This document shows positions 3,351-27,750 of a DNA stretch of 35,611 nt, one piece after another. The stretch lies in NCBI GenBank assembly GCA_017517135.1, contig JAFXAK010000002.1, positions 1 through 35,611 on the forward strand, given 5' to 3'. The translations under genes were made by a program, and so were the position numbers. Position 1 is the first letter of the stretch, and each line of letters opens with the position of its first letter. The DNA is from Clostridia bacterium. Lineage in GTDB: Bacteria; Bacillota; Clostridia; Oscillospirales; Acutalibacteraceae. Under the pieces are notes generated by a model, which made no database searches, was not told where the DNA came from, and saw only the letters and a list, made by a program, of their open reading frames with translations.

Positions 3351-5213
3351 ATGAAAAAAGTTTTAAGTATGCTGAAACCGCATTCAAAGCCGCTTGTGCT
3401 TTCAATAATATTTGCAACAGTAAATACGGTTATGCAGCTTCTTCTCCCCTTTTATACAAAAGAAATAATGGATAAGGGTATCCTTGCAAAGGATATGGAA
3501 AAGCTTGTGCAGATATGTCTTATAATGCTCGGCTTTACCGTTATCGGAATAATAACAAGCCTTCTCAATACATATTTTTCAACGAGAACATCCGTAGGCT
3601 ATGCCGTAACGCTGAGAAACTTTATTTTTGAAAAGGTCTCCCGTCTTTCTCAGAGCGATATCGACAAAATCGGAGTAGCATCCCTCGTAACAAGAACAAC
3701 AAACGATGTCCGTCAGGTGCACGATATTGTTTTGTCCACGCTCAAATCCCTTATTCCCATTCCGATAATGTTTGTGGGCGGTCTTGTGCTGGCATTCAAG
3801 ATGAATGCAAAGCTTGCAAGAATTGCATTATGGAGTATACCCGTTCTTCTCGTACTCGCAGTAATTCTTATTGCCGTGATTGTGCCGATGTTCTCAAAAA
3901 TCCAGAAGCTGGTGGACAAGCTCAACCAGTCAATGAGAGAAAAAATCAGCGGTATCCGTGTAATCAGAGCCTTCAACAAAACCGAATATGAGGATGAACG
4001 CTTTTCAAAAACAAACCTTGACCTCACGGGTATCTCACTCAGAGCCCACAGAATTATGGCAGGTCTTCTCCCCATTGTCAGCATAGGACTGTATTCACTC
4101 ATATGCATTATAGTTTACATAAGCGTATCCGATGCAAACACCCTTGATCCCATCACTCAGAGCGAGGAAATCCGCAGCGCAATACCCAATATGTATGCAT
4201 TCATAACATATTTCACCTTAGTAATAACTGCTGTCACCTCTGTTGTGAGTATTGTTGTATCAATCCCCAAGGCTTCAATTTCCGGCAAAAGAATCAAGGT
4301 AATAATGGATGCGGTTTCCGATATCGTTGAAAGCGAAAATCCCGTAACTCCCGACGAAAAGGACAAGGGCAAGGTTGAATTCAGAAATGTAACCTTTAAG
4401 CATAAGCCCTTGCCTGAAAAGGATACAAAAAAGAAACGCTCTCTCAAGGCAAAGAAAAAAGACAAAAACGCCGATACTACCGTAAAAAATACAGAGCCTT
4501 TCACGCTCAACAATGTAAGCTTTGTTTCAAATCCCGGTGAAATCACGGCAATCATAGGTATCACGGGAAGCGGAAAAACAACGCTGGTCAATCTCATTCC
4601 CCGTCTTTATGACACCACAGAGGGTGAGGTGCTTGTTGCGGGCGTAAATGTAAAGGATTTAAGCTCACAGGAGCTTGAGGACCGTATTGCGGTAATTCCT
4701 CAGCAGGCTTTCCTTTTCAGCGGCACAATAGCAGACAATATCCGCTTCGGTAAGGAGGATGCCACCGACACCGAAATATGGCGCGCCCTCGAAATAGCAC
4801 AGGCAAAATCCTTTGTTGCGGCAATGCCCGACGGCATTGAAAGCTTTGTGTCCCAAGCGGGTAAAAACTTCTCGGGCGGTCAGAAGCAGCGGCTTGCAAT
4901 AGCAAGAGCAATTGTAAAAGGCGCAGAAATCTGCATTTTTGACGACAGCTTCTCAGCCCTCGACCTTGCAACAGATGCCCGTCTTCGTGCATCATTAAAG
5001 GAAAACCTTACGGACACAAATCTTATTATTGTTGCCCAGCGAGTGGGTACGGTTATAAATGCCGACAGAATTATAGTTCTTGACAACGGAAATGTTGTAG
5101 GTCAGGGCACACATACTGAGCTTCTGAAGACCTGCAGTACATACCGCGAAATAGTTGTAACACAGTTATCCGAGGAAGCACTTGAGGGGGTGGAAATAAA
5201 TGAGCAGGAATAA
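3351..5213 (+). CDS. Heterodimeric ABC exporter, subunit 1 (degenerate-site half)
   Basis: This 620-residue fusion has a six-helix transmembrane domain (about 10-305) and a nucleotide-binding domain (about 340-620). Motifs are Walker A GITGSGKTT (403-411), Q-loop region IPQQAFLFSG, signature FSGGQ (507-511) and Walker B ending FDD (530-532). The residue after the Walker B Asp is Asp 532 rather than the catalytic Glu, and the H-loop has Gln 563 (VAQRVGT) instead of His. These are the marks of the non-hydrolytic site in BmrCD/LmrCD/TM287-288-type heterodimers. An unusual Lys-rich insertion (about 353-383) precedes Walker A. The next gene overlaps by 14 nt and encodes the partner. Substrate (drug, lipid or peptide) is unknown. 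Confidence 0.9.
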   Translation: MKKVLSMLKPHSKPLVLSIIFATVNTVMQLLLPFYTKEIMDKGILAKDMEKLVQICLIMLGFTVIGIITSLLNTYFSTRTSVGYAVTLRNFIFEKVSRLSQSDIDKIGVASLVTRTTNDVRQVHDIVLSTLKSLIPIPIMFVGGLVLAFKMNAKLARIALWSIPVLLVLAVILIAVIVPMFSKIQKLVDKLNQSMREKISGIRVIRAFNKTEYEDERFSKTNLDLTGISLRAHRIMAGLLPIVSIGLYSLICIIVYISVSDANTLDPITQSEEIRSAIPNMYAFITYFTLVITAVTSVVSIVVSIPKASISGKRIKVIMDAVSDIVESENPVTPDEKDKGKVEFRNVTFKHKPLPEKDTKKKRSLKAKKKDKNADTTVKNTEPFTLNNVSFVSNPGEITAIIGITGSGKTTLVNLIPRLYDTTEGEVLVAGVNVKDLSSQELEDRIAVIPQQAFLFSGTIADNIRFGKEDATDTEIWRALEIAQAKSFVAAMPDGIESFVSQAGKNFSGGQKQRLAIARAIVKGAEICIFDDSFSALDLATDARLRASLKENLTDTNLIIVAQRVGTVINADRIIVLDNGNVVGQGTHTELLKTCSTYREIVVTQLSEEALEGVEINEQE

Positions 5214-7097
5214 AATGAACACCCTTGACCAAACAAGCTATAACAGCAAATACGCTGCCTACAGAAACCAGCCGAAAAACGAGCAGAAGCCCGAAAATAT
5301 GAAGGGCACGGTTATCCGCTTCTTTGCACTCATAAAGCCGCAGGCGATTTCAATGGCAATAGTCTGTATTGCTTCAATGCTTAACACCGTCTGTACGGTT
5401 GTTTCACCGCAGTACCTTGCAGACCTCATAAATGTTCTTCAGGAGCAGATTGAGGGCAGACTCACGGGCGGCACCATTGATTTTTCGGGTACATACACAA
5501 TAATAATCAGACTGGCTCTGATATATTTTATGTCCTCGCTGTTTATGTTTGTTCAGCAGTATACCTCGGCAGGACTTTCCCAGAAGCTTGTATGCCGTTT
5601 AAGAGAACAGCTCAACTCGAAATTATCCCGTCTGCCCTTAAGCTATTACGACAAAAACACCAAGGGACAGGTTATTTCAAAAATGATAAACGATATTGAA
5701 AATGTAAGCTCAAGTCTTCAGAGCAGTATCGTTACAATTCTCACAAGCATAGTTCAGGTAACAGGAAGCCTTGTGATGATGCTCTCCACGGGCAATATGT
5801 GGATGACGCTTGTTGCAATATGCCTTGTTCCGATTTCGGGCACTGTCTCCTATCAGATTTCAAAGATATCGAAAAAATGGTTCAGGCGTTATTGGGACAC
5901 AATGGGCGACCTCAACGGACATATAGAGGAAATGTATGCAGGACATACGATAGTAAGAATGTTCGGGCATGAGAGCAAATCCGTTGAAGAATTCAGAGAT
6001 ATTACCTACCGCCTTGCAAAAAACAGCTTTATGGCGAATATGATTTCGGGTATACTCAATCCCATTCTTACCCTCATCAAAAACATAAACTATGTAAGCC
6101 TTTGTCTGCTCGGCGGATATTTCTACATAGGACTGAACAAGGGCTTTGTTGCGGGTGTAAAATCCGTAGCATTGGGCGACATTCAGGCGTTCCTTTCATA
6201 TTCGTCCTATTTCTCCTCACCGATTATCAACCTTTCAAAGATTATAAACAATATTCAGTCCTCCTTAGCTTCAGCCGAAAGAGTTTTCGCTATTCTTGAC
6301 GAAGAAGAGGAAGTCCCCGACTGTAACGACAATAATTCCGACGAAAAAGCAAAAGGACTTATTGAATTCAGAGATGTATCGTTCAGATATGTTGAGGATA
6401 TCCCGCTTATTGACAATCTCAATCTTACCGCAAAACCGGGAAGCGTTACCGCAATAGTAGGCCCCACGGGAGCAGGTAAACAACAATAGTAAATCTGCTT
6501 ATGAGATTTTACGACATAAACGGCGGTCATATTTATCTTGACGGTACAGATATTTATACAATGTCGAGAAATGCTCTCAGAGCAAACTTCGGTATGGTTT
6601 TACAGGACACCTGGCTTTTCAAGGGCACAATAAGAGAAAACATCCTCTACGGCAGAAGCGATGCTACCGAGGAAGAGCTTATTGAGGTCACAAAATCAGC
6701 ACATATTTATGATTATATAATGTCCCTGCCCGACGGCTTTGACACTCTGCTTACAGAGGACGGCACAAACATTTCTCAGGGACAAAAACAGCTTCTCACC
6801 ATTGCAAGAGCACTCATTGCAAATCCTGCAGTTCTTATTCTTGACGAGGCAACAAGCTCCGTTGACACAAAAACAGAAATGCAGATACAGAATGCTATGA
6901 ACACCCTTATGCAGGGCAGAACAAGCTTTGTTATCGCCCACCGCCTTTCAACCATAAAGAATGCAGATAACATTCTTGTTATGAAAAAGGGCACAATTGT
7001 TGAACAGGGCACACACGATGAGCTTCTTAAAGCCGACGGCTTCTATGCAATGCTTTACAACAGTCAGTATACAGACGGTATTCCGCCTGAAGATTAA
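5200..7097 (+). pseudogene. Heterodimeric ABC exporter, subunit 2, frameshifted in Walker A
   Basis: Translation from 5200 (ribosome binding site GGGGGTGG just upstream) gives a six-helix membrane domain and the start of a nucleotide-binding domain, then reads GPTGAGK (421-427), Gln-Gln and a stop at 6487-6489. Adding one A to the AAA at 6478-6480 restores GAGKTTIVNLLMRFYDINGG and joins the frame ending at 7097, for a protein of about 632 residues. The distal part holds VLQDTWLFKG, the signature variant ISQGQ, Walker B LILDEATSSVD with catalytic Glu, and IAHRLSTI with the H-loop His, so it is the catalytically complete half. Everything else is intact. It is either a recent one-base deletion or a homopolymer base-calling error. 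Reinitiation at ATG 6501 could at best make a soluble fragment. Confidence 0.85.
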
Positions 7098-16115: not shown

Positions 16116-16622
16116 ATGAAAAAAATCTTAGCTGTAGCTATAGCTCTTATGCTCGCATTAACAGCAACTCTTACTGTTTCCGCAACTGTTCTCAACAAGG
16201 ATGCTGATGAAGCTCCCGTTCTCGTATCTCTTTCCGGTGAAGATCTTGATCTCGGCGGTATTCTTGATACAGTAACAGGTCTCCTCGGCGGCATTGACCT
16301 TGGCGGTATGATGGACAGTCTCGGCGGTAGCCTTGACCTCGGCGGCATTATGGATACTGTTGGCGGCCTTCTCGGCGGCGGCGGAGATTCTCTCGGCGGC
16401 ATCACAGATAGCCTCGGTGGTCTCGGTGACAGCCTCGGTGGCATCACAGACAGCCTCGGCGGTTCTTCAGATGAACCTACTACCGGTGACAATGGCGACA
16501 ACGGTGACAACAATGGTGGTTGCACAAATCCCAATTGTCCTTGCGGACCTAACTGTTCTTGCGGTCCCGATTGCAACTGCGGTCAGGATGTTAACAACCC
16601 CAACACAGGCGACATCAGATAA
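16116..16622 (+). CDS. Secreted glycine-rich repeat protein with cysteine-rich C terminus
   Basis: The 168-residue product starts with a clear Sec signal peptide (MKKILAVAIALMLALT..., cleavage probably after VSA at about 23). Residues about 48-117 are LGG-rich repeats alternating DLGGIxDTV/GGLLGG and DSLGGITDSLGG. A DNGDNGDNN spacer leads to a cluster of seven cysteines, CxxxxCxCxxxCxCxxxCxC (about 136-155), and the end is NPNTGDIR. The Cys pattern resembles metallothionein-like metal-binding segments. NPNTGD resembles a sortase-like motif, but no membrane anchor follows. It has its own promoter and a perfect terminator and is therefore a single-gene unit. Function unknown; possibly a surface metal-binding or structural protein. 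Confidence 0.85.
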   Translation: MKKILAVAIALMLALTATLTVSATVLNKDADEAPVLVSLSGEDLDLGGILDTVTGLLGGIDLGGMMDSLGGSLDLGGIMDTVGGLLGGGGDSLGGITDSLGGLGDSLGGITDSLGGSSDEPTTGDNGDNGDNNGGCTNPNCPCGPNCSCGPDCNCGQDVNNPNTGDIR

Positions 16623-19340: not shown

Positions 19341-20135
19341 TTAATTAAGCTTCCCTAAGTATTCCTCAAGACACAGATTATCTGCCTTCATTGCCTTTGC
19401 GGCATCAACGCCTACATATCTCCAATGCCAGGGGGAAGCCTGATAATGCGTAATACCTTCCTTATCGGCTGTGTATCTTTCAATAAAGCCATACTCTGCC
19501 GCGTGCTTTTTAAGCCAGGAATATGCGGGAGAATCTGCAAAGCTGTCTGCAATCCAGCCGATGTCTATTGCAAGTCCGTAGTTATGCTCACTGCAGCCCT
19601 CGGGGAGAACATAGAAAATTGCCTGTACCTTGCTTTGCTCCTCGCTTAAGCCCGAAGCAATAAGACTTTCAACCTGTTTATCATAATTTCTTGTCTGTCT
19701 GTCAAGGCTTACATAACCGGAAGCGGGGGTAAGTGTTACTGAATCAGACAAGGCTGCATTATACATCTGAATAAATTTCTCGGCAACTCTGCTGTCAAGA
19801 TAAATACCCGTTCCCTCAACAACCTCTGTCAGCTGAGGCTCATATGAGGAATCCATTTTATAGTATGCATTAAGAAGCACAAGACACCAGCTCTCATCAG
19901 CGGGCATTGTTACTTTTTTAGGTGTGGGGATTTCTGTCAGCTCAACCGCTATATTTCCCGAAGCGGTTGTTTCCTCTGTGTTTACAGTTGTTTCCTCTAC
20001 AGCTGCAGTTGTTTCTTCTGTTACAGGCTGAGAGGATGTTCTCACGGCAACAGTTATTTTATATGAAACGAAAAATGCGACAAGCATCGCAATTATAATA
20101 ATCATAGCAAGGGGTAAAAGCTTTTTTATATTCAT
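19341..20135 (-). CDS. VanY-like D-alanyl-D-alanine carboxypeptidase family protein (M15B)
   Basis: The 264-residue product has an N-terminal membrane anchor (about 6-32), a Thr/Glu-rich linker (about 37-60) and an M15B/LAS domain. Zinc ligands are visible as His 184 and Asp 191 (SEHNYGLAIDIGW) and His 237 (PWHWRYVG), with SGYVSLDRQ upstream. In characterised VanY/DdpX enzymes the block is EPWHxRYVG, with the Glu as catalytic base; this protein has Ser 234 there (codon TCC). Either another acidic residue serves or activity is altered. The expected role is trimming terminal D-Ala from muropeptides outside the membrane. GGGAGG precedes ATG 20135. Confidence 0.85.
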   Translation of the reverse strand: MNIKKLLPLAMIIIIAMLVAFFVSYKITVAVRTSSQPVTEETTAAVEETTVNTEETTASGNIAVELTEIPTPKKVTMPADESWCLVLLNAYYKMDSSYEPQLTEVVEGTGIYLDSRVAEKFIQMYNAALSDSVTLTPASGYVSLDRQTRNYDKQVESLIASGLSEEQSKVQAIFYVLPEGCSEHNYGLAIDIGWIADSFADSPAYSWLKKHAAEYGFIERYTADKEGITHYQASPWHWRYVGVDAAKAMKADNLCLEEYLGKLN

Positions 20136-20173
20136 AAAGGAGAGCCTCCCGATTAAATAAGTTATCTGTGTAT

Positions 20174-20202
20174 ACTATACTCTATTATGCGAAAAAAGTC
20201 AA
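20174..20202 (-). promoter_or_regulatory. Sigma-A promoter of the VanY-like carboxypeptidase gene
   Basis: On the minus strand TTGACT (20202-20197), a 17-bp spacer and TATAGT (20179-20174) lie between the FkbM stop and the carboxypeptidase start. Confidence 0.75.
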
Positions 20203-20204
20203 TC

Positions 20205-21236
20205 TCAGACGAAATAAAAAGCGGTGTCCCATGCAGGAATATACGGAAGATGGCGCATATACACCTTATAATCGGGATTGATTTCTGAAATTTTAAGCGG
20301 AAGTGTGAACAAATCCTCGCTTCTGTGGTAACAGGAGACGAGCATTTTCGGCTTGTATGTTTTTATGGAATGTTCTGCCCCCGAAATGGCTTTCAGCTCA
20401 TTTCCCTCAACATCCATTTTTATAAAATCAACCCTTTTGCCGTTCAGAAGCGAATCGACGGTAAGCGAGGGAATACACTCCCCTGTTGCCGCTTCGTGCG
20501 AGCCTCTGCCCTTTTTGGAATCAAAAAAGGTGTCTTCCACCCTATCTCCTATAACTGCCCTTACACAGTTTATGTTTACAAGCTCTGCCGTGTTTTCACA
20601 CAATTTTCTGAAGCTGCGTTTATCAGGCTCAACGGCAATAATCTCGGCATAAGACGGACATTTTTCAACAAATTCCTTTACGGTATCTCCGTTATACGCT
20701 CCGAGGTCAACAAACACGGCTTTTTCGGGCAAGTCAATTATACTGCTCTCCTCTGCCTTGTCTGTCTCACATTCATATAAATACTCTATTTTCCCTGTAA
20801 GCTTGTATTTTATATGATTTTCAAGGGTTTTAACGGATAATTCATCAGCCAAAACTGCTCTGACACGCTCTAATTCATCAATATGCTTTTCATAAAATGA
20901 CAAATTAAATATGTTATCGCCGTATACCGGCACATCGGGAGCGAGCAGCTCACATTCTGCCGATATTTTTCTGATATTTTCGAGAACCTCCGGACGGCTT
21001 GAGCCGAAGCACATCAGCACTGACATATCGAGGAATTTCTCTTTTGCCTCAGAGAAAGACATCACCCGCATCCCTCTGAAAAAGCGGTCTCTTACAAAAG
21101 AGTCACTTGCGAAAACACCGCTGACAGGAATATTATTTCTTTCCAGCTCGTCAAGTATTTTATCCGCACCGTTTCCCGTGCCGTATAAAACAATATTTTT
21201 ATTGCAATTTTTAAGATAAGTCCAGATATCCGTCAT
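20205..21236 (-). CDS. FkbM family SAM-dependent methyltransferase with N-terminal Rossmann-like domain
   Basis: The 343-residue protein has two parts. Residues about 10-110 start with NIVLYGTGNGADKILDEL, a dinucleotide-binding-like fold common in surface-sugar enzymes. Residues about 165-343 hold the FkbM methyltransferase: SAM motif VFVDLGAYNGDTV, IIAVEPDKRSF, and VDFIKMDVEGNELKAISGAE. Such enzymes O-methylate sugars or secondary metabolites. The acceptor is unknown and no glycan cluster is adjacent. It has its own promoter (TATAAT at 21268-21273 on the plus strand read in reverse) and precedes the carboxypeptidase gene, which has a separate promoter. Confidence 0.88.
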   Translation of the reverse strand: MTDIWTYLKNCNKNIVLYGTGNGADKILDELERNNIPVSGVFASDSFVRDRFFRGMRVMSFSEAKEKFLDMSVLMCFGSSRPEVLENIRKISAECELLAPDVPVYGDNIFNLSFYEKHIDELERVRAVLADELSVKTLENHIKYKLTGKIEYLYECETDKAEESSIIDLPEKAVFVDLGAYNGDTVKEFVEKCPSYAEIIAVEPDKRSFRKLCENTAELVNINCVRAVIGDRVEDTFFDSKKGRGSHEAATGECIPSLTVDSLLNGKRVDFIKMDVEGNELKAISGAEHSIKTYKPKMLVSCYHRSEDLFTLPLKISEINPDYKVYMRHLPYIPAWDTAFYFV

Positions 21237-21267
21237 ATTTTCTCCGTGTTAAGCATTTGTTTTATGT

Positions 21268-21296
21268 ATTATACATTTTCAAGCAAAAAAAGTAAA
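21268..21296 (-). promoter_or_regulatory. Sigma-A promoter of the FkbM methyltransferase gene
   Basis: On the minus strand TTTACT (21296-21291) and a perfect TATAAT (21273-21268) are separated by 17 bp, about 32 nt before the start codon. Confidence 0.75.
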
Positions 21297-21318
21297 TATT
21301 TAACAATATTCTTCCAAC

Positions 21319-21350
21319 AAAAAAAAGCCCCGATTAAGGGACTTTTTTTT
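21319..21350 (-). terminator. Terminator of the four-peptide operon
   Basis: On the minus strand AAGTCCC pairs with GGGGCTT (one T-G wobble) around TTAATC, flanked by A and T runs, and ends in at least seven Ts. It lies about 30 nt after the last peptide gene, ahead of the FkbM promoter. Confidence 0.8.
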
Positions 21351-21381
21351 AATTATGCATAATTCTTAATAGTAAAAATTA

Positions 21382-21507
21382 TCAAGCGGTTGTTTCTTCG
21401 TCTTCTGCACCAATTTTAACACCGAAAATCTTTTCGATTTCAGCAAGAACCTGCTTGAAGAATTCAACTACTTCAGCAACCATCTGCTTTATTGTAGCCA
21501 TATCCAT
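21382..21507 (-). CDS. Amphipathic acidic small peptide D (41 aa)
   Basis: This is the last of four tandem small genes. The product begins MDMATIKQMVAEVVEFF and ends GAEDEETTA. Hydrophobic residues at 6, 9/10, 13/14, 17, 20/21, 24 and 27/28 recur every 3-4 positions, as in one long amphipathic helix, and the tail is acidic (net charge about -5). There is no signal peptide and no cysteine. A GAGGTG ribosome binding site (plus-strand CACCTC at 21515-21520) sits 7 nt before ATG. A second ATG at codon 3 is less well spaced. The 56-nt gap to peptide C carries the same GAAAAGAGGTGCA leader as the gap before C. Function unknown. Confidence 0.8.
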   Translation of the reverse strand: MDMATIKQMVAEVVEFFKQVLAEIEKIFGVKIGAEDEETTA

Positions 21508-21563
21508 TAGTGTGCACCTCTTTTCAATTAAATAAAATAATTAATTTGAAAAAATATCAAAAA

Positions 21564-21680
21564 TTAAGCAACAGTTGTTTCTTCTTCACCGAAATAGTCA
21601 TTGAAGAAAGATTTGATGGAATCAAGAGCTTCAAGAAGCTTTGATATTGCATATTCAAACCAGTTAAAGAAGTTTTCCAT
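21564..21680 (-). CDS. Amphipathic acidic small peptide C (38 aa)
   Basis: The product begins MENFFNWFEYAISKLLEAL and ends DYFGEEETTVA. It is the most aromatic of the set (five Phe by residue 26, plus Trp 7 and Tyr 10 and 29), with hydrophobics on one helical face and Glu/Asp/Lys on the other, net about -6. Its EEETTVA end is identical to that of peptide A at both protein and near-DNA level, which argues for duplication. GAGGTG (CACCTC at 21687-21692) lies 6 nt before ATG. It resembles phenol-soluble modulins in size and amphipathicity but is far more acidic. No homologue is known to me. Confidence 0.82.
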   Translation of the reverse strand: MENFFNWFEYAISKLLEALDSIKSFFNDYFGEEETTVA

Positions 21681-21746
21681 TAGTTGCACCTCTTTTCAAA
21701 AAGTAATAAAAAATCTTAAGAAATGAAACAATAAAACTAAATAAAA

Positions 21747-21890
21747 TTATTCAGCCTTTGTTGCCCATTCGTCACCTTCCCAAGGCATGGGATTTGTGGA
21801 TGTGATGTCAGCGATGAAGTTCTTGAGAACGTTGAATAAGTCTTTAAGAACTGTTACGAAGTTGTTAAGCATAGCCTTAAGTTCATCCAT
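21747..21890 (-). CDS. Amphipathic small peptide B (47 aa), divergent tail
   Basis: The product begins MDELKAMLNNFVTVLKDLF and continues as a helix with hydrophobics at 4, 7/8, 11/12, 14/15, 18/19, 21/22, 25/26 and 29. Unlike the other three it ends with a Pro/Trp-containing tail, TSTNPMPWEGDEWATKAE, instead of EETT(V)A. Net charge is about -4. GAGGTG (CACCTC at 21899-21904) is 8 nt before ATG. It is the second gene of the transcript, 50 nt after peptide A. The distinct tail suggests a partner peptide rather than another copy, but that is inference. Confidence 0.8.
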   Translation of the reverse strand: MDELKAMLNNFVTVLKDLFNVLKNFIADITSTNPMPWEGDEWATKAE

Positions 21891-21940
21891 TGTTGCGGCA
21901 CCTCACTTTCATAATAAAATTAAAAATTCTGAAACAAAAA

Positions 21941-22060
21941 TTAAGCAACTGTTGTTTCTTCTTCATCAAGACCGAGTGTAGCCATAGCTCTTTCGATGAA
22001 TGCAAAGAGTTCGTTGAAGAACTTAACAAGCTTATCGAGGATTACTTCTACCTTATCCAT
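21941..22060 (-). CDS. Amphipathic acidic small peptide A (39 aa), first gene of the operon
   Basis: The product begins MDKVEVILDKLVKFFNELF and ends GLDEEETTVA. Hydrophobic residues at 4, 7/8, 11, 14/15, 18, 21/22, 26 and 29 form a continuous amphipathic face; the tail is acidic and net charge about -5. GAGGTG (CACCTC at 22070-22075) lies 9 nt before ATG. It is the first gene after the promoter and the 5' hairpin of the transcript. The frame is intact, the ribosome binding site is strong and three relatives follow, so coding is likely despite the length. There is no adjacent transporter, modification enzyme or immunity gene. Function unknown. Confidence 0.82.
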   Translation of the reverse strand: MDKVEVILDKLVKFFNELFAFIERAMATLGLDEEETTVA

Positions 22061-22092
22061 TATTGGGGGCACCTCACTTTCAGATATAATTA

Positions 22093-22108
22093 GCAAGTAT
22101 TACCTTGC
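22093..22108 (-). promoter_or_regulatory. 5'-terminal mRNA hairpin of the peptide operon
   Basis: GCAAG/CTTGC with a 6-nt loop lies at the predicted transcript start (near 22108). Hairpins at an mRNA 5' end often stabilise the transcript; that role is inferred here. Confidence 0.5.
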
Positions 22109-22114
22109 GATATT

Positions 22115-22143
22115 ATAATAACACCAATGTCTATAAATTTCAA
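22115..22143 (-). promoter_or_regulatory. Sigma-A promoter of the small-peptide operon
   Basis: On the minus strand TTGAAA (22143-22138), a 17-bp spacer and TATTAT (22120-22115) lie about 55 nt before the first peptide start. TTAACATT occurs three times upstream on the plus strand (22160, 22285 and 22296, the last two 11 bp apart), possibly operator sites. Confidence 0.65.
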
Positions 22144-22323
22144 GTAAAATTTAAGCAATTTAACATTGTTTACATTTATAACAAAATGTTGTCAAAATTG
22201 TAACCATTGCCGGCAAAATTATCCGACAAAAGCTTATTTAATGTTGCAAAATCGATTTTTTGTACTATTAATCATACAGCTTTGTTAACATTTGATTAAC
22301 ATTTTGAAATAAAATCAAACGAA

Positions 22324-23196
22324 TTATTTGTTTTCGTTGTATGTTCTTATAAGAATTTCTTCCTGTTCGGGAGTGTATGCTCTGAAGGGCTTGCGGCAAT
22401 TGCCGAGGTCAATACCGAGATATTTACAAAGCACCTTTTCACCGGACATAACACCGAAACGGCAAAGAACTTCAATGATGTTGTTTGCCTTGACCTGCTC
22501 GGCTCTTGCTTCTTCTATCTTATTTTCTCTGAAGAGCTTTTCAATAAGAACGAATTTTTCAGCCATAAAGTTATAGGTACTGCCGATACCGCCGTCTGCA
22601 CCTGCAGCAAGACCTGAAATGAATATTTCATCAAAGCCGTTAAAAACAACAGCATCTTTTCTGAAATTCTTAAGTCTTTCAAGCATAAAGAAATCGCTGC
22701 TTGTGTGCTTTACACCGATGAAACGGGGATCAGACAGAAATTCCTTGAAATTCTCTGTTGAAAGCTTTGCACCGCCTGCTGCAACAAAGTTATAGATAAT
22801 AACAGGCAAGCCTACATCTGCAAGGTCGAAATAATAATTCTTTATTTCATCATAAGTAAAGCCGTAATAGAAAGGCGGAACACTGCTTATTGCATCAGCG
22901 CCTGTTTCCTTTGCGTGCTGTGCCAATGCAAGAGCGTGAGCCTCACCCACATTACCTACATGTGCAATAATTGCAGCCTTGCCGTTTACCTCCTCGCAAA
23001 CTGTTTCAAGAACCTTTTTTCTCTCGCAGTCTGTCATAAGGAAAGCCTCAGATGTTGAACCGCATACATAGAAGCCGTTAACACCCTTATCAAGGTTGAA
23101 CTTTACAAGCTCCTTGAGAGCCGCATAATTTACTTCTCCGTCTGCCTTAAAAGGAGTAAGGAGAGCCGGAAATACGCCGTGGAATTTTTCATTCAT
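22324..23196 (-). CDS. nanA: N-acetylneuraminate lyase-like protein (DHDPS/NAL family)
   Basis: The 290-residue TIM-barrel aldolase shows GFYVCGSTSEAFLM (substrate carboxylate loop at about 46-50; usually GSTGE, here Ser 49), VIIYN with the catalytic Tyr 135, and IGVKHTSSDFF with the Schiff-base Lys 163. Spacings match sialic acid lyase better than dihydrodipicolinate synthase, which has KEA/KDS-type contexts. It would cleave N-acetylneuraminate to ManNAc and pyruvate. No nanE, nanK or transporter is adjacent, so another 2-keto-sugar acid remains possible. GGAGGG lies 9 nt before ATG 23196. It has its own promoter, and no clear terminator follows. Confidence 0.82.
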   Translation of the reverse strand: MNEKFHGVFPALLTPFKADGEVNYAALKELVKFNLDKGVNGFYVCGSTSEAFLMTDCERKKVLETVCEEVNGKAAIIAHVGNVGEAHALALAQHAKETGADAISSVPPFYYGFTYDEIKNYYFDLADVGLPVIIYNFVAAGGAKLSTENFKEFLSDPRFIGVKHTSSDFFMLERLKNFRKDAVVFNGFDEIFISGLAAGADGGIGSTYNFMAEKFVLIEKLFRENKIEEARAEQVKANNIIEVLCRFGVMSGEKVLCKYLGIDLGNCRKPFRAYTPEQEEILIRTYNENK

Positions 23197-23235
23197 AATA
23201 TTTTCCCTCCGAGAAAACCATATTTTAACAATTAC

Positions 23236-23264
23236 AGTATAAATCGAAAAAAAACTTTAGTCAA
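23236..23264 (-). promoter_or_regulatory. Sigma-A promoter of the nanA-like gene
   Basis: On the minus strand TTGACT (23264-23259), a 17-bp spacer and TATACT (23241-23236). Confidence 0.75.
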
Positions 23265-23389
23265 CACCTTTTGTAAATTCCTACAAATAAAAGAACTGAA
23301 AATATACATAAATCCGCACAAATCACCGCTAAAAGAGGAAATGTGAAAATCAACACCTGAAACTGTCGGAAAAATGTGCAAAAACAATA

Positions 23390-23418
23390 TTGAAACGGTT
23401 GGAATTTTGTGATACACT
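23390..23418 (+). promoter_or_regulatory. Sigma-A promoter of the first AAA_14/DUF4143 gene
   Basis: TTGAAA (23390-23395) and TACACT (23413-23418) are separated by 17 bp, 30 nt before ATG 23449. Confidence 0.65.
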
Positions 23419-23448
23419 ATATTCACAATAAATACAGGCGGTGTTTTT

Positions 23449-24795
23449 ATGTCCCGACTAATTCGCAAAACCGATACTTTTCTTCTTGAATGGAAAAACA
23501 AAACAGACAGACTTCCCCTCATTGTGAAAGGAGCCCGTCAGATTGGAAAAACCGAAGCAATAAGTCATTTCGCAAGAGGAAATTACAAATCGGTAATTGA
23601 AATCAATTTTGCCCTGCAAAAGCAATTCAAGGATATCTTTGATGACGGCTTTGATGTGGATACTATCATCAAAAATATTTCTCTCAAAAATCCCGAATTT
23701 GAATTCCCTGCCGGGGAAACGCTTTTTTTCTTTGATGAAATTCAGGATTGCATAAACTGTGCAACAAGCCTTAAAGCCTTTAAAACAGACGGCCGTTTTG
23801 ATGTTATCTGCTCAGGCTCACTTATGGGAATCAATTATAACGAAATTGAATCCAACAGCGTGGGGTATAAAGAAGACTATGAAATGCATTCACTTGACTT
23901 TGAGGAATTCCTCTGGGCAAAGGGCTATAAACCCGAACAGATAGAAGAGCTTTTTCAAAAGCTTATCACAACAACTCCGCTTTCAGACACACAATATTCC
24001 GTTATGCTCGAAAATTTCAGAGAGTATATGGTGCTTGGCGGTATGCCTGCCGTTGTTTTCTCGTTTGTAACACAAAAAAATTACAGCGGAACTCTCAAGC
24101 TGCAAAGACAGCTGCTGCTTGACTACGAAGAAGATATCACAAAATATGCAGCGGGACTTGACAAGGGTAAAATTCTTGATATTTACAGAAAAATTCCTGT
24201 TTTCCTCGGGAAGGACAATAAAAAGTTTCAGATTTCAAAAATCAGAACAGGAGCAAGAAACCGAGATTATGTGGGCACGGTTGAATGGCTTAAAAATGCG
24301 GGAATTGTAAATGTATGCTACTGTTTGTCTTCCCTTGAACTGCCGCTGAAAGGTAACTATAATCCCGATAACTATAAAATTTATTTCCGTGATACGGGCT
24401 TGCTTATCGGCTCTCTTGACGAAGAGGTACAGGAGGATCTCCGATTCAATAAAAATTTCAACACCTACAAGGGGGCACTTTATGAGAATATTGTTGCGGA
24501 TATGCTGGTAAAACAGGGTTACGGTCTTTATTTTTACCGCAATGAAAAAGCTACTGTTGAAATGGACTTTTTTGTCCGTGATGCAAATTCGCTTATTCCC
24601 GTTGAGGTAAAAGCAAATGATGCTTCAACACCTTCCCTTAATTCCCTTATTGAAAAGGAAAGCTTTGAGGACATAAAATACGGCATTAAGCTTGCAAATA
24701 AAAATATCGGCTTTAACGGAAAATTCTACACCATTCCGTATTTCCTCACCTTTATGCTGAAAAGATTTCTGAAAGAAAAAAGTAAAACCGACTAA
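23449..24795 (+). CDS. AAA_14/DUF4143 ATP-binding protein (first copy)
   Basis: The 448-residue protein has Walker A GARQIGKT (28-35), Walker B TLFFFDEIQDC (Asp 96, Glu 97) and the family's sensor segment CSGSLMGI, followed by DUF4143 (about 195-380). Near the C terminus EMDFFV...IPVEVKA has the spacing of a PD-(D/E)xK-type nuclease core, a common feature of this family. The family is widespread and of uncertain function, with suggested links to defence or mobile elements. The ribosome binding site is weak (GGCGG). The neighbours are housekeeping genes. A relative lies about 1.6 kb downstream on the other strand. Confidence 0.9.
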   Translation: MSRLIRKTDTFLLEWKNKTDRLPLIVKGARQIGKTEAISHFARGNYKSVIEINFALQKQFKDIFDDGFDVDTIIKNISLKNPEFEFPAGETLFFFDEIQDCINCATSLKAFKTDGRFDVICSGSLMGINYNEIESNSVGYKEDYEMHSLDFEEFLWAKGYKPEQIEELFQKLITTTPLSDTQYSVMLENFREYMVLGGMPAVVFSFVTQKNYSGTLKLQRQLLLDYEEDITKYAAGLDKGKILDIYRKIPVFLGKDNKKFQISKIRTGARNRDYVGTVEWLKNAGIVNVCYCLSSLELPLKGNYNPDNYKIYFRDTGLLIGSLDEEVQEDLRFNKNFNTYKGALYENIVADMLVKQGYGLYFYRNEKATVEMDFFVRDANSLIPVEVKANDASTPSLNSLIEKESFEDIKYGIKLANKNIGFNGKFYTIPYFLTFMLKRFLKEKSKTD

Positions 24796-24875: not shown

Positions 24876-25970
24876 ATGAAATTAGGTATAGTAGGCTTAC
24901 CGAATGTAGGCAAAAGTACACTTTTCAATGCACTTACAAACGCAGGGGCACAGGCTGCGAACTATGCATTCTGCACAATAGAGCCTAATGTGGGCGTTGT
25001 TGCAGTTCCCGATGCAAGACTTGACGCATTAGCCGAGATGTATTCCCCCGACAAAATCACTCCCGCAACCATTGAATTTGTTGACATTGCAGGACTTGTA
25101 AAGGGTGCTTCAAAGGGCGAGGGACTGGGAAACAAGTTCCTTTCTCACATCAGAGAGGTGGATGCAATAATCCATGTTGTGCGTTGCTTTGAAAATGACG
25201 ATATTATGCATGTTGACGGGGAAATAGATCCCGCAAGAGATATAGAAACTATCAATCTTGAGCTTATTCTCTCCGATGCGGAAATTCTCCAGAGAAGAAT
25301 AGACCGCGACACAAAGGCTATGAAGGGGGATAAATCCCTTGCAGGAGATGTTGCCTTCCTCAACCGTCTTAAGGACGAGCTTGACAATGCAGTATGTGCG
25401 AGAGCCGTTGAAATGACAAAGGAAGAAAAAGAGATAATGGACACCGTTGCTCTTCTCTCCTCAAAGCCCGTAATCTATGCTTGTAATATGAGTGAAGAGG
25501 ATTTCTCGGGCGACCTTGCAGACAACAAGTACTTCTCAAAGGTAAAGGAAATTGCAGATGCCGAGGGCAGTCAGGTGCTTCCCATCTGTGCAGAGCTTGA
25601 AGCACAGATAGCAGAGCTTTCGGGTGAAGAAAAGGAAATGTTCTTATCGGAGCTTGGCATTGAAAAGGGCGGACTTGACCTGCTCATTCAGAAGAGCTAC
25701 GATTTATTGGGACTTATGAGCTACCTCACCGCAGGCAAGCCCGAGGTAAGAGCCTGGACAATAGCAAAGGGGACAAAAGCACCTCAGGCAGCAGGTAAAA
25801 TCCATTCAGACTTTGAAAGAGGCTTCATCCGTGCCGAGGTTATCTCCTTTGACGACCTTATGGCAAACGGCTCAATGGCAGCCGCAAAGGAAAAAGGACT
25901 TGTACGCTCAGAGGGAAAGGAATATGTAATGCAGGACGGCGACATCGTTCTGTTCAGGTTTAATGTATAA
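24876..25970 (+). CDS. ychF: Redox-regulated ATPase YchF (Obg-like)
   Basis: The 364-residue protein has the P-loop GLPNVGKSTLFNALT (residues 6-20), ANYAFCTIEPNVGVVAVPD (switch I region), DIAGLVKGASKGEGLGNKFL (G3) and YACNMSEED in place of the NKxD of GTP-specific relatives, as expected for an ATP-preferring YchF. A coiled-coil arm (about 125-200) and the C-terminal TGS domain with RAWTIAKGTKAPQAAGKIHSDFERGFIRAEV complete it. It binds ribosomes and is linked to stress responses. Length and motifs are normal. The stop overlaps the next start by one base. Confidence 0.97.
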   Translation: MKLGIVGLPNVGKSTLFNALTNAGAQAANYAFCTIEPNVGVVAVPDARLDALAEMYSPDKITPATIEFVDIAGLVKGASKGEGLGNKFLSHIREVDAIIHVVRCFENDDIMHVDGEIDPARDIETINLELILSDAEILQRRIDRDTKAMKGDKSLAGDVAFLNRLKDELDNAVCARAVEMTKEEKEIMDTVALLSSKPVIYACNMSEEDFSGDLADNKYFSKVKEIADAEGSQVLPICAELEAQIAELSGEEKEMFLSELGIEKGGLDLLIQKSYDLLGLMSYLTAGKPEVRAWTIAKGTKAPQAAGKIHSDFERGFIRAEVISFDDLMANGSMAAAKEKGLVRSEGKEYVMQDGDIVLFRFNV

Positions 25971-26400: not shown

Positions 26401-27750
26401 TTAAAACTCAAGCTTCTTGATATTGGAATCTGCATCAAAAAACATAATATAATAAATCGGCATATATATTATTTTACCGTTTTGTGTAACATTTCTTTCA
26501 TTAGATACAACAAATGCTTTTTTAATATTATAATCCTCATTCTGAACAAATGCGTTCAATGCACTATGCACAGTATAGTCTTTACCGGACTTTACTTCAA
26601 TCGGCACAACTGACAGACTGTCATAATCATCAATAAGATAATCAACCTCGCCCTTGTTGCGATTGTCATAATAAAAGAGCTTGTGACCGTGAGCGATTAA
26701 TTCACTTGCAACAACCGATTCATATACCGAGCCTAAATTAACACTCTTCACATCATCAAGAACAGCACGGATGTTTGTTCTGTAAAGAATATTTGTAAGA
26801 ATGCCTACATCATTAAGATACAATTTCAATAAGTTCTTACCGCTGTTCTCAATCAACGGGAATGTGGGGGTTGAAATTGCCTTTACATCAAGTGCAATAC
26901 CTGCATTGATAAGATAATCAAATTCGTCTTCATAATCCGAAGCGCGTTTTCCTCTGATATTTTCAATATTCTGAATCACCAGACGCTTTTTCTTATTTTC
27001 AAGATTTGACGGTATCATATCATATATTCTGCGAATTTTCAGTTTTTTGCCCTCGTCATATTTTGAAGCATCCATACCGTAATAATTATGGATCTGAGTC
27101 TGGATATTGCGAACGGCAACAATGTTCTTATCCCGTATATAAGAATTGATTACATCGGGAAGACCGCCTATAAGCAGATACTTTCTGAACAGCTCCATAA
27201 CTTTATTGTGAGTTGCTTCATCAAGACTCTCCATTGCCTCAAACCTTTTACGCATTTCATCAATCGCATAATTATTAAATCCCTGACTTAACAAAAATTC
27301 TTCAAAATCAAGCGGATACATTCTCTTAACCTCAATGCTGCCCATAGGGATAGATTCTGTCTCGGCAAGAGTAACACCAAGCAGAGAACCACTTGCAATA
27401 TAAGTAAATTTATCATCCCGCTTCAAGAATTTGAGCAGAGTAAGCAAATGCGGGTATGCTTGTATTTCATCAATAAAGATTATTGTATTATCCTTATTTC
27501 CCATTTTTTCACCGGCAATCATGCTCACCTGCAAATAAAAATCATCGACGGTTCTTATACTGCTGAAATGCCGATCCTTCAGAGAATCCTCAAGCATATT
27601 GATTTCAATATAGTTCTTAAAAAGCTTTTCAGCAGTATATTTTATGATATAGGTTTTACCAATCTGTCTCGCACCGTCAATAACCAGAATCTTATTTGAA
27701 TCGGAGCGCAAGTGGTTTTCGATATAGGCTTGTATCTTTCTGTAAAGCAC
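26401..27750 (-). CDS. AAA_14/DUF4143 ATP-binding protein (second copy)
   Basis: The 449-residue protein has the same plan as the gene at 23449: Walker A GARQIGKT (26-33), Walker B TIIFIDEIQAYP (Asp 94, Glu 95), ASGSLLGV, DUF4143 and a C-terminal GEVDYLIDD...PIEVKSGK that fits a PD-(D/E)xK core. It is clearly divergent from the first copy, so recent local duplication is unlikely. The start is GTG 27750, 7 nt after GGAGG. Its upstream region is an array of 33-bp-spaced ACACTTTTCAA repeats. Lower GC and more A/T-ending codons than the flanking genes hint at horizontal acquisition, judged by eye only. Confidence 0.9.
   Translation of the reverse strand: MLYRKIQAYIENHLRSDSNKILVIDGARQIGKTYIIKYTAEKLFKNYIEINMLEDSLKDRHFSSIRTVDDFYLQVSMIAGEKMGNKDNTIIFIDEIQAYPHLLTLLKFLKRDDKFTYIASGSLLGVTLAETESIPMGSIEVKRMYPLDFEEFLLSQGFNNYAIDEMRKRFEAMESLDEATHNKVMELFRKYLLIGGLPDVINSYIRDKNIVAVRNIQTQIHNYYGMDASKYDEGKKLKIRRIYDMIPSNLENKKKRLVIQNIENIRGKRASDYEDEFDYLINAGIALDVKAISTPTFPLIENSGKNLLKLYLNDVGILTNILYRTNIRAVLDDVKSVNLGSVYESVVASELIAHGHKLFYYDNRNKGEVDYLIDDYDSLSVVPIEVKSGKDYTVHSALNAFVQNEDYNIKKAFVVSNERNVTQNGKIIYMPIYYIMFFDADSNIKKLEF

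Follow-up and report, generated by a model that had tools for sequence, protein, structure and literature searches.

The window, a 35,611-nucleotide stretch of DNA from the genome of a Clostridia bacterium, carries an operon of four short peptide genes (P1 to P4), which are confirmed as real genes and more than chance frames by conserved order, purifying selection in relatives, and codon bias. The genus (27 genomes) carries two four-peptide sets, type A, to which the window operon belongs, and type B. New here is the observation that a related box lies upstream of both the type A and the type B quartets, at a fixed distance from the -10 element in each type.

Operon Structure and Predicted Folds

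Four consecutive minus-strand frames of 39, 47, 38, and 41 residues with GAGGTG sites, one promoter, and one terminator had been described from the sequence alone, and our re-reading confirmed this layout (Table 1). The GAGGTG motif precedes the ATG of P1, P2, P3, and P4 by 9, 8, 6, and 7 nt, respectively, and the gaps between P1-P2, P2-P3, and P3-P4 are 50, 66, and 56 nt. The C-termini of P1, P3, and P4 are EETTVA or EETTA, and the tail of P2 contains Pro/Trp. By alignment, P2, P3, and P4 have 26, 52, and 32% identity to P1. The products had also been described as amphipathic acidic helices, and this held: their net charges are -5, -4, -6, and -5, and their hydrophobic-moment z-scores against same-residue shuffles are 3.3, 3.3, 3.0, and 2.5. 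P1 and P2 are predicted to be mostly one helix each. AlphaFold2, run on single sequences, placed a helix at residues 3-29 of P1 (mean pLDDT 85.7), and at residues 2-32 of P2 with a further low-confidence one at 38-46 (mean pLDDT 81.5).

Promoter-like matches are not enriched in the window (seven versus 5.8 expected by chance), so the weight of the operon promoter comes from its conserved distance to the box in relatives. A rule-based terminator scan of the window found no terminator (0.6 expected) and did not list the hairpin in Table 1, perhaps because the U-run is base-paired to an A-run within the stem. No Rfam match was found within positions 20000-24000.

Table 1. Features of the peptide operon and its flanking genes in the window.
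Feature	Position	Strand	Basis and remarks
Peptide P1, 39 aa	22060-21941	minus	ORF; type A position 1, weak positional assignment
Peptide P2, 47 aa	21890-21747	minus	ORF; type A position 2, weak positional assignment
Peptide P3, 38 aa	21680-21564	minus	ORF; type A position 3, clearest orthologue in G002, G010, and G015
Peptide P4, 41 aa	21507-21382	minus	ORF; type A position 4, weak positional assignment
Promoter TTGAAA-17-TATTAT, TG before -10 (extended -10)	22143-22115	minus	Promoter scan; box spacing kept in relatives
Upstream box TTTTGTTATAAATGTAAACAAT	22165..22186	minus	Motif model, 24.6 bits; box start 66 nt before start of -10 hexamer
Hairpin with U-run, likely intrinsic terminator	21351-21318	minus	Folding of 76-nt stretch, z = -3.8
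FkbM-domain methyltransferase	20205..21236	minus	PF05050; synteny marker, not thought part of the system
YchF-type GTPase (presumed, judged from its sequence)	24876..25970	plus	Synteny marker; same gene on this side of the array in L097, L101, L102, and L103

Peptide Quartets in the Genus

A search for homologous frames in relatives, proposed in the sequence-only reading, was successful: 24 of the 27 genus genomes match the type A and/or type B profiles, the exceptions being G001, G004, and G022. With the four window peptides combined in one profile, all 27 genomes gave matches at E <= 1, mostly noise, and tandem short frames surrounded several of these matches. The type A position 2 profile matched 20 of the 27 genomes at E <= 0.02 (15 of these at E <= 5.4e-9), seven of the 20 having been used to build it. 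The profile of the type B first peptide (...LGILVLPE...) also matched 20 of the 27, of which six had been used to build it. All 13 loci from L151 to L163 have arrays of three to five peptides, and the G009 array has five. Type B was not found in the window's genome, a metagenome-assembled genome (MAG) of 94% completeness. Type B carriers (16 loci) are MAGs of Clostridia, Oscillospiraceae, or Ruminococcaceae, and their stated sources are water buffalo rumen; goat rumen, omasum, or rectum; and water deer cecum.

Five genomes (the window's, G002, G010, G015, and G013) share one chromosomal location for type A, between the FkbM methyltransferase gene and the YchF gene; G013 has only two peptides there. 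The FkbM gene is present in 10 genomes, including the window's own, and an array adjoins it in five. The other five have no array within approximately 1.5 kb on each side of it (less in G017, where the contig ends).

Gene order within the quartets is conserved. Among the quartets of G002, G010, and G015, each of the three comparisons puts the one-to-one pairing in order at rank 1 of 24. Window P3 corresponds to the third peptide of these three genomes (scores 79, 52, and 59; others in the row <= 47), although position 3 is not its best fit against G003. P1, P2, and P4 have a loose position assignment only. Against G002, G010, G015, G024, and G003, the window set taken in identity order ranks 2, 6, 5, 1, and 1 of 24, respectively. 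Quartet statistics covered 35 quartets (17 type A and 18 type B; 140 peptides) after incomplete sets were dropped (G006, G013, and G017 of 20 for type A; G011 and G023 of 20 for type B). Of the 24 possible pairings, identity order came out best for 152 of 153 type B pairs (6.4 expected by chance) and, less clearly, for 62 of 136 type A pairs (5.7 expected by chance). Sequence alone gave no position-by-position homology between sets A and B, as the best pairing varies from pair to pair. The earlier suggestion of a multi-component set is supported. The special status given to one divergent member is not, as the best-resolved relatives have four distinct positions, each with its own orthologues, and a second quartet exists.

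Several other small genes were seen near the arrays or resemble their members. At least 11 of 20 genomes encode a small Cys-containing protein (CPFF...CEG..., 73-118 aa) close to type B (e.g., L095:7760-7990 and L098:10680-10904); the one that was scanned had no Pfam, PHROG, or PADLOC match. A helix related to type B peptide 1 is also coded apart from the quartet and without a box (e.g., L116:8591-8692 and L058:1495-1587), in several genomes near a PHP-domain-like gene (Pfam run on one). The window's genome has a solo amphipathic peptide (L109:9867-9965) with no box before it (-0.4 bits), and G015 has a pair (L183:1504-1757); the same gene, which we take to be TrmL-like, lies beside both.

Neighbor Genes

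In the neighborhoods read by eye, none of the genes noticed beside the arrays was a recurrent exporter or immunity gene; family searches covered ten neighbors. Uptake genes beside three type B loci are presumably GlnPQ-like. A spoVAE-like gene lies upstream of type B in G005 (PF03862) and, by likeness, in G003 and G008. Elsewhere in the window, the second half of an apparent heterodimeric ABC exporter pair (5200-7097) looks split into two ORFs of 429 and 198 aa, and two AAA_14/DUF4143-like ATPases (23449-24795 and 26401-27750; Pfam on the first) flank the YchF gene.

Selection and Codon Use

The earlier reading of leaderless acidic amphipathic helices in one operon is supported, and they are under selection. 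The synonymous-site check showed purifying selection and not non-synonymous drift, with dN/dS of 0.25-0.41 in three unsaturated type A pairs compared as whole sets (0.34/1.36, 0.35/1.16, and 0.48/1.17) and 0.16-0.30 in five set-wise type B pairs (0.11/0.37, 0.24/1.10, 0.20/1.25, 0.19/0.70, and 0.17/0.82). In all three pairs that include the window set, dS is saturated (>= 2.3) and dN is 0.63-0.67.

Ribosomal protein L14 was not found in the window's MAG, and EF-Tu of the same genome alone was used instead as the codon reference. The four window peptides together score +0.22 for EF-Tu-like codon use, compared to -0.46 (sd 0.085) for 2000 draws from window codons and +0.08 for the best of 25 window genes. 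Singly, P1 to P4 score +0.33, +0.26, +0.08, and +0.20, and P3 by itself does not exceed the top-scoring window gene. All nine loci computed (11 listed) show an excess of preferred codons, with p from 3.6e-19 to 0.042. Codon use and Shine-Dalgarno sites suggest high expression of the peptides. The most EF-Tu-like of the 25 window genes (16116-16622) codes for a Gly-rich secreted protein that carries LGGI/LGGL repeats and is Cys-rich at its end.

Shared Upstream Box

Type A upstream regions carry TTTTGTTATAAATGTAAACATT-like sequences. A joint model, fitted to types A and B together, located a site (14.3-27.2 bits) in each of the 37 upstream regions except that of G011 type B (-13.5). Thirty-two of the 36 sites lie 114-145 nt upstream of the first listed peptide's start codon. 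In 13 of 18 type A regions, exactly 66 nt separate the start of the box from that of the extended -10; in 14 of 19 type B regions the distance is 75-78 nt, about one helical turn more. When a model of type A only was applied to the 19 type B regions, p was <= 0.01 in eight and <= 0.05 in 13, and 12 of these 13 sites were at -122 to -132. Because the type A model reaches only part of the type B regions, the two boxes are related, not identical. The A and B operons are apparently controlled through this common DNA box, which may bind a putative regulator.

In 861 kb of collected loci, 31 sites reached 15 bits. Twenty-seven of them precede peptide arrays or a solo peptide, and the others are one overlapping reverse site in the window and three sites before other genes. 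Most of the 27 sites are among those used to fit the model, so its specificity is best judged from cases outside the training set, which are a solo peptide of G006 (18.3) and the G082 array of another genus (17.7), and from the control, in which 598 kb of letter-shuffled sequence had one 15-bit site. No box was found before the detached type B-related peptide 1 genes (best scores <= 7.4 in 11 of 11), the solo peptides of G007 (6.8) and G026 (-4.6), or the arrays of G286, G086, and G070 (<= 4.1).

In the window's own genome, the box pattern occurs at eight places versus three for the reversed control. The only exact core is at 22169-22185 of the window, and the other seven places have two mismatches. 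One two-mismatch box (16.1 bits) precedes a gene for a secreted 429-aa protein, and a weak box (11.9 bits, L166) precedes a response-regulator-like gene, presumably of the LytTR type as judged from its start. Of the sites before other genes in the 861 kb, one at array-like spacing precedes the gene for a secreted protein with repeats (L075:14177 onward), which we take to be dockerin-like, and two precede like genes of G002 and G010. The box before this secreted repeat protein hints that the regulon may include other exported proteins.

Peptide Character and the EETT Tail

The quartet peptides have a median length of 47 aa and a median gap of 49 nt. Net charge is negative in 137 of 140, neutral in two, and positive in one; only one of the 140 contains cysteine. 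Their tails are acidic. The hydrophobic period of all quartet peptides is 3.6 (peak at 100 degrees). It is near 3.5 (102-103 degrees) at positions A1-A3 and B2, and positions A4, B1, B3, and B4 peak at 97-99 degrees.

EETT-type segments are typical of exported proteins in this genus. Of 93 genus proteins whose N-terminus has a hydrophobic segment, 16 contain them, versus four of 198 others (p = 6.5e-6); per 10,000 residues the figures are 9.3 versus 0.57, a 16-fold difference. At seven of nine further loci inspected for the tail pattern in the window's genome, the pattern lies in a reading frame that has a signal-like or lipoprotein-like start. As DNA, the pattern is not enriched in that genome (16 matches versus 15 in the control), and only 18 of the 140 quartet peptides have an EETT-type motif. 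The EETT tail had been said to belong to no described family; no family was indeed found, but the same segments are present in exported proteins and lipoproteins of the genus.

Relatives Beyond the Genus and Database Scans

Similar arrays of short acidic or near-neutral helices were recognized by eye in G082, G286, G086, G070, and G034, each from another genus of the family. The G082 array (L106:8262-9485) has seven peptides, a box in mid-array (8798), and a phage-holin-family gene nearby (PF05105). At E <= 0.005, the type B first-peptide profile matched eight of 300 genomes, three of them of the genus, and the type A position 2 profile matched 13 of 349 genomes, five of them of the genus. Few matches beyond the genus may reflect either fast divergence of the peptides or rarity of the arrays there. 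At the order level (395 genomes), the type B fourth-peptide profile had matches in eight genomes at E <= 0.02. Inspection of three of these loci showed one plausible pair in L119 and none in L120 and L122.

None of the four window peptides matched a Pfam family at E up to 10. NCBIfam gave nothing above cut-off for them, and below cut-off matches of P4 (E 0.04 and 0.069) were taken as chance, as was the single weak PADLOC match, P4 to JAB (E 0.014). There was no PHROG match for nine proteins, eight of them array peptides, no phage match for one type B peptide at E <= 0.01, and no plasmid match for P1 at E <= 0.1. Phage, plasmid, or defense origin is thus not supported by these scans. The best match to solved structures had an E value of 0.14. 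Single type B peptides had weak sub-cut-off Pfam matches to PSMalpha, Bombolitin, Uperin, HILPDA, SpoV, and others without such a link, which are probably chance. A literature search, with coverage lacking most subscription journals, found no description of such peptide arrays among the titles listed; PMC13376575 contains neither "amphipathic" nor "operon".

Comparison With Known Systems

PSM-beta peptides are amphipathic helices. They are described as leaderless, about 44 residues long, encoded in clusters of two to six genes, and exported by Pmt, and the six PSM-beta of Staphylococcus capitis are 55-93% identical to each other (PMC5585272). The array peptides resemble staphylococcal PSM-beta/SLUSH (Staph_haemo domain) in size, lack of leader, and tandem clusters, and they are likewise short leaderless amphipathic helices, often in tandem. 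They differ in that the window peptides have no Pfam match, with P2-P4 only 26-52% identical to P1, come from another taxon, and have acidic Glu/Thr tails. The best PSM profile match was PSMalpha in one of 21 type B fourth peptides (E 0.028, 14.9 bits versus a cut-off of 23), and the 19 type B first peptides had none. LspU and LspD of Staphylococcus aureus flank a lipase gene on its mRNA, and LspU is exported by PSM transporters (PMC12607899). These PSM-alpha-like proteins are also small leaderless amphipathic helices overlooked by annotation but form no quartets.

Aureocin A70 consists of four leaderless peptides of 30-31 aa, and garvicin KS is also multi-peptide; table rows of the same source give leaderless bacteriocins a charge of +2 to +7 and the multi-peptide ones a length of 26-34 aa (PMC6131525). 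The arrays share with aureocin A70, garvicin KS, and cereucins a make-up of three or four tandem leaderless peptides made together, but the array peptides are longer and acidic. Of the likenesses drawn in the sequence-only reading, that to PSMs stands for size, layout, and absence of a leader and fails for the Pfam profile, and that to leaderless bacteriocins stands for layout and fails for cationic charge. SpoVM is a short amphipathic helix too, and three genomes have a spoVAE-like gene close to type B. The array peptides differ from it in their vegetative-type promoter, sets of four, and acidity; no window peptide or type B fourth peptide (21 scanned) reached the SpoV profile cut-off, and one of 19 type B first peptides had a sub-threshold match (E 0.069).

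Possible Roles of the Quartets

The role that we favor, tentatively, is that of an exported set of four peptides working jointly outside the cell as a membrane- or surface-active product, like PSM-beta. It is favored because EETT-type segments mark exported proteins in this genus. The operon would make four different short amphipathic acidic leaderless helices in large amounts from one vegetative-type promoter, tuned by a putative regulator at the upstream box. Some exporter would then carry them out, and the set may act jointly in surfactant activity, spreading, attachment, or biofilm matrix, as PSM-beta does in staphylococci. We infer export from tail composition alone, joint action from the conserved fourfold make-up, and also the membrane- or surface-active role itself. 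Against this role, the peptides have no signal peptide and no recurrent exporter or immunity gene beside them in the neighborhoods read by eye, are strongly acidic, rarely have the EETT-type motif, and reach no PSM Pfam family at cut-off, and the period near 3.5 at A1-A3 and B2 also suits helix packing. That period, the lack of a noticed exporter, the strong codon bias (as in structural proteins), and the recurrent four with non-interchangeable positions in two parallel sets would all fit an intracellular assembly, in which the four helices combine in a bundle or as a coat on membranes, granules, or droplets and are never exported. We consider such an assembly rather unlikely, as EETT-type segments are typical of exported proteins in the genus, the overall period of 3.6 (97-99 degrees at A4, B1, B3, and B4) is unlike that of coiled coils, and G013 keeps two peptides at the site and G009 has five. 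A bolder proposal, which we hold to be doubtful, is that the two co-regulated operons each encode one obligate four-component machine. Non-interchangeable acidic helices would combine in fixed stoichiometry as a bundle, pore, or surface film, would rank with the most heavily translated products of an uncultured gut genus, and would be under one dedicated regulator, with the box one helical turn nearer the promoter in one set than in the other.

A multi-peptide leaderless bacteriocin of the aureocin A70 or garvicin KS kind would have the same tandem make-up (PMC6131525), and synthetic S. capitis PSM-beta peptides are antibacterial (PMC5585272). Nevertheless, this is unlikely given that 137 of the 140 peptides are negative where leaderless bacteriocins are cationic, and that no recurrent immunity or exporter gene was noticed by eye beside the arrays. 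Presence in most genomes of a genus is also unusual for a bacteriocin. It is very improbable that the peptides are sporulation or membrane-shaping helices like SpoVM: the spoVAE-like gene in G005, G003, and G008 and the one sub-threshold SpoV match point that way, but the promoters resemble extended -10 vegetative ones (the scan covered SigA-like sites), and no sporulation gene was noticed beside other type B loci or the type A loci read. We give a similarly small chance to secreted signal peptides sensed by neighbors or by the producer. Co-regulated short leaderless peptides and the response-regulator-like gene with a weak box in the window's genome would suit signaling; four distinct peptides with EF-Tu-like codon bias exceed a signal's needs, and no receptor gene was noticed beside the arrays. 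Chance reading frames in non-coding or RNA-coding DNA could account for short frames with no family match above cut-off, but conservation of frame and order, purifying selection, codon bias, and the lack of an Rfam match refute both chance ORFs and a known structured RNA, leaving this explanation almost no probability.

Annotation often passes over small proteins, and those described here form a whole, apparently co-regulated group with the codon bias of highly expressed genes; the members scanned have no family above cut-off in Pfam, NCBIfam, PHROGs, or PADLOC. Through the conserved box, the regulator and additional members could be sought directly. If the peptides assemble in fours, they would represent an unusual protein design. 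Export, if it occurs, would make them the gut equivalent of staphylococcal PSMs and perhaps one of the lineage's major extracellular products.
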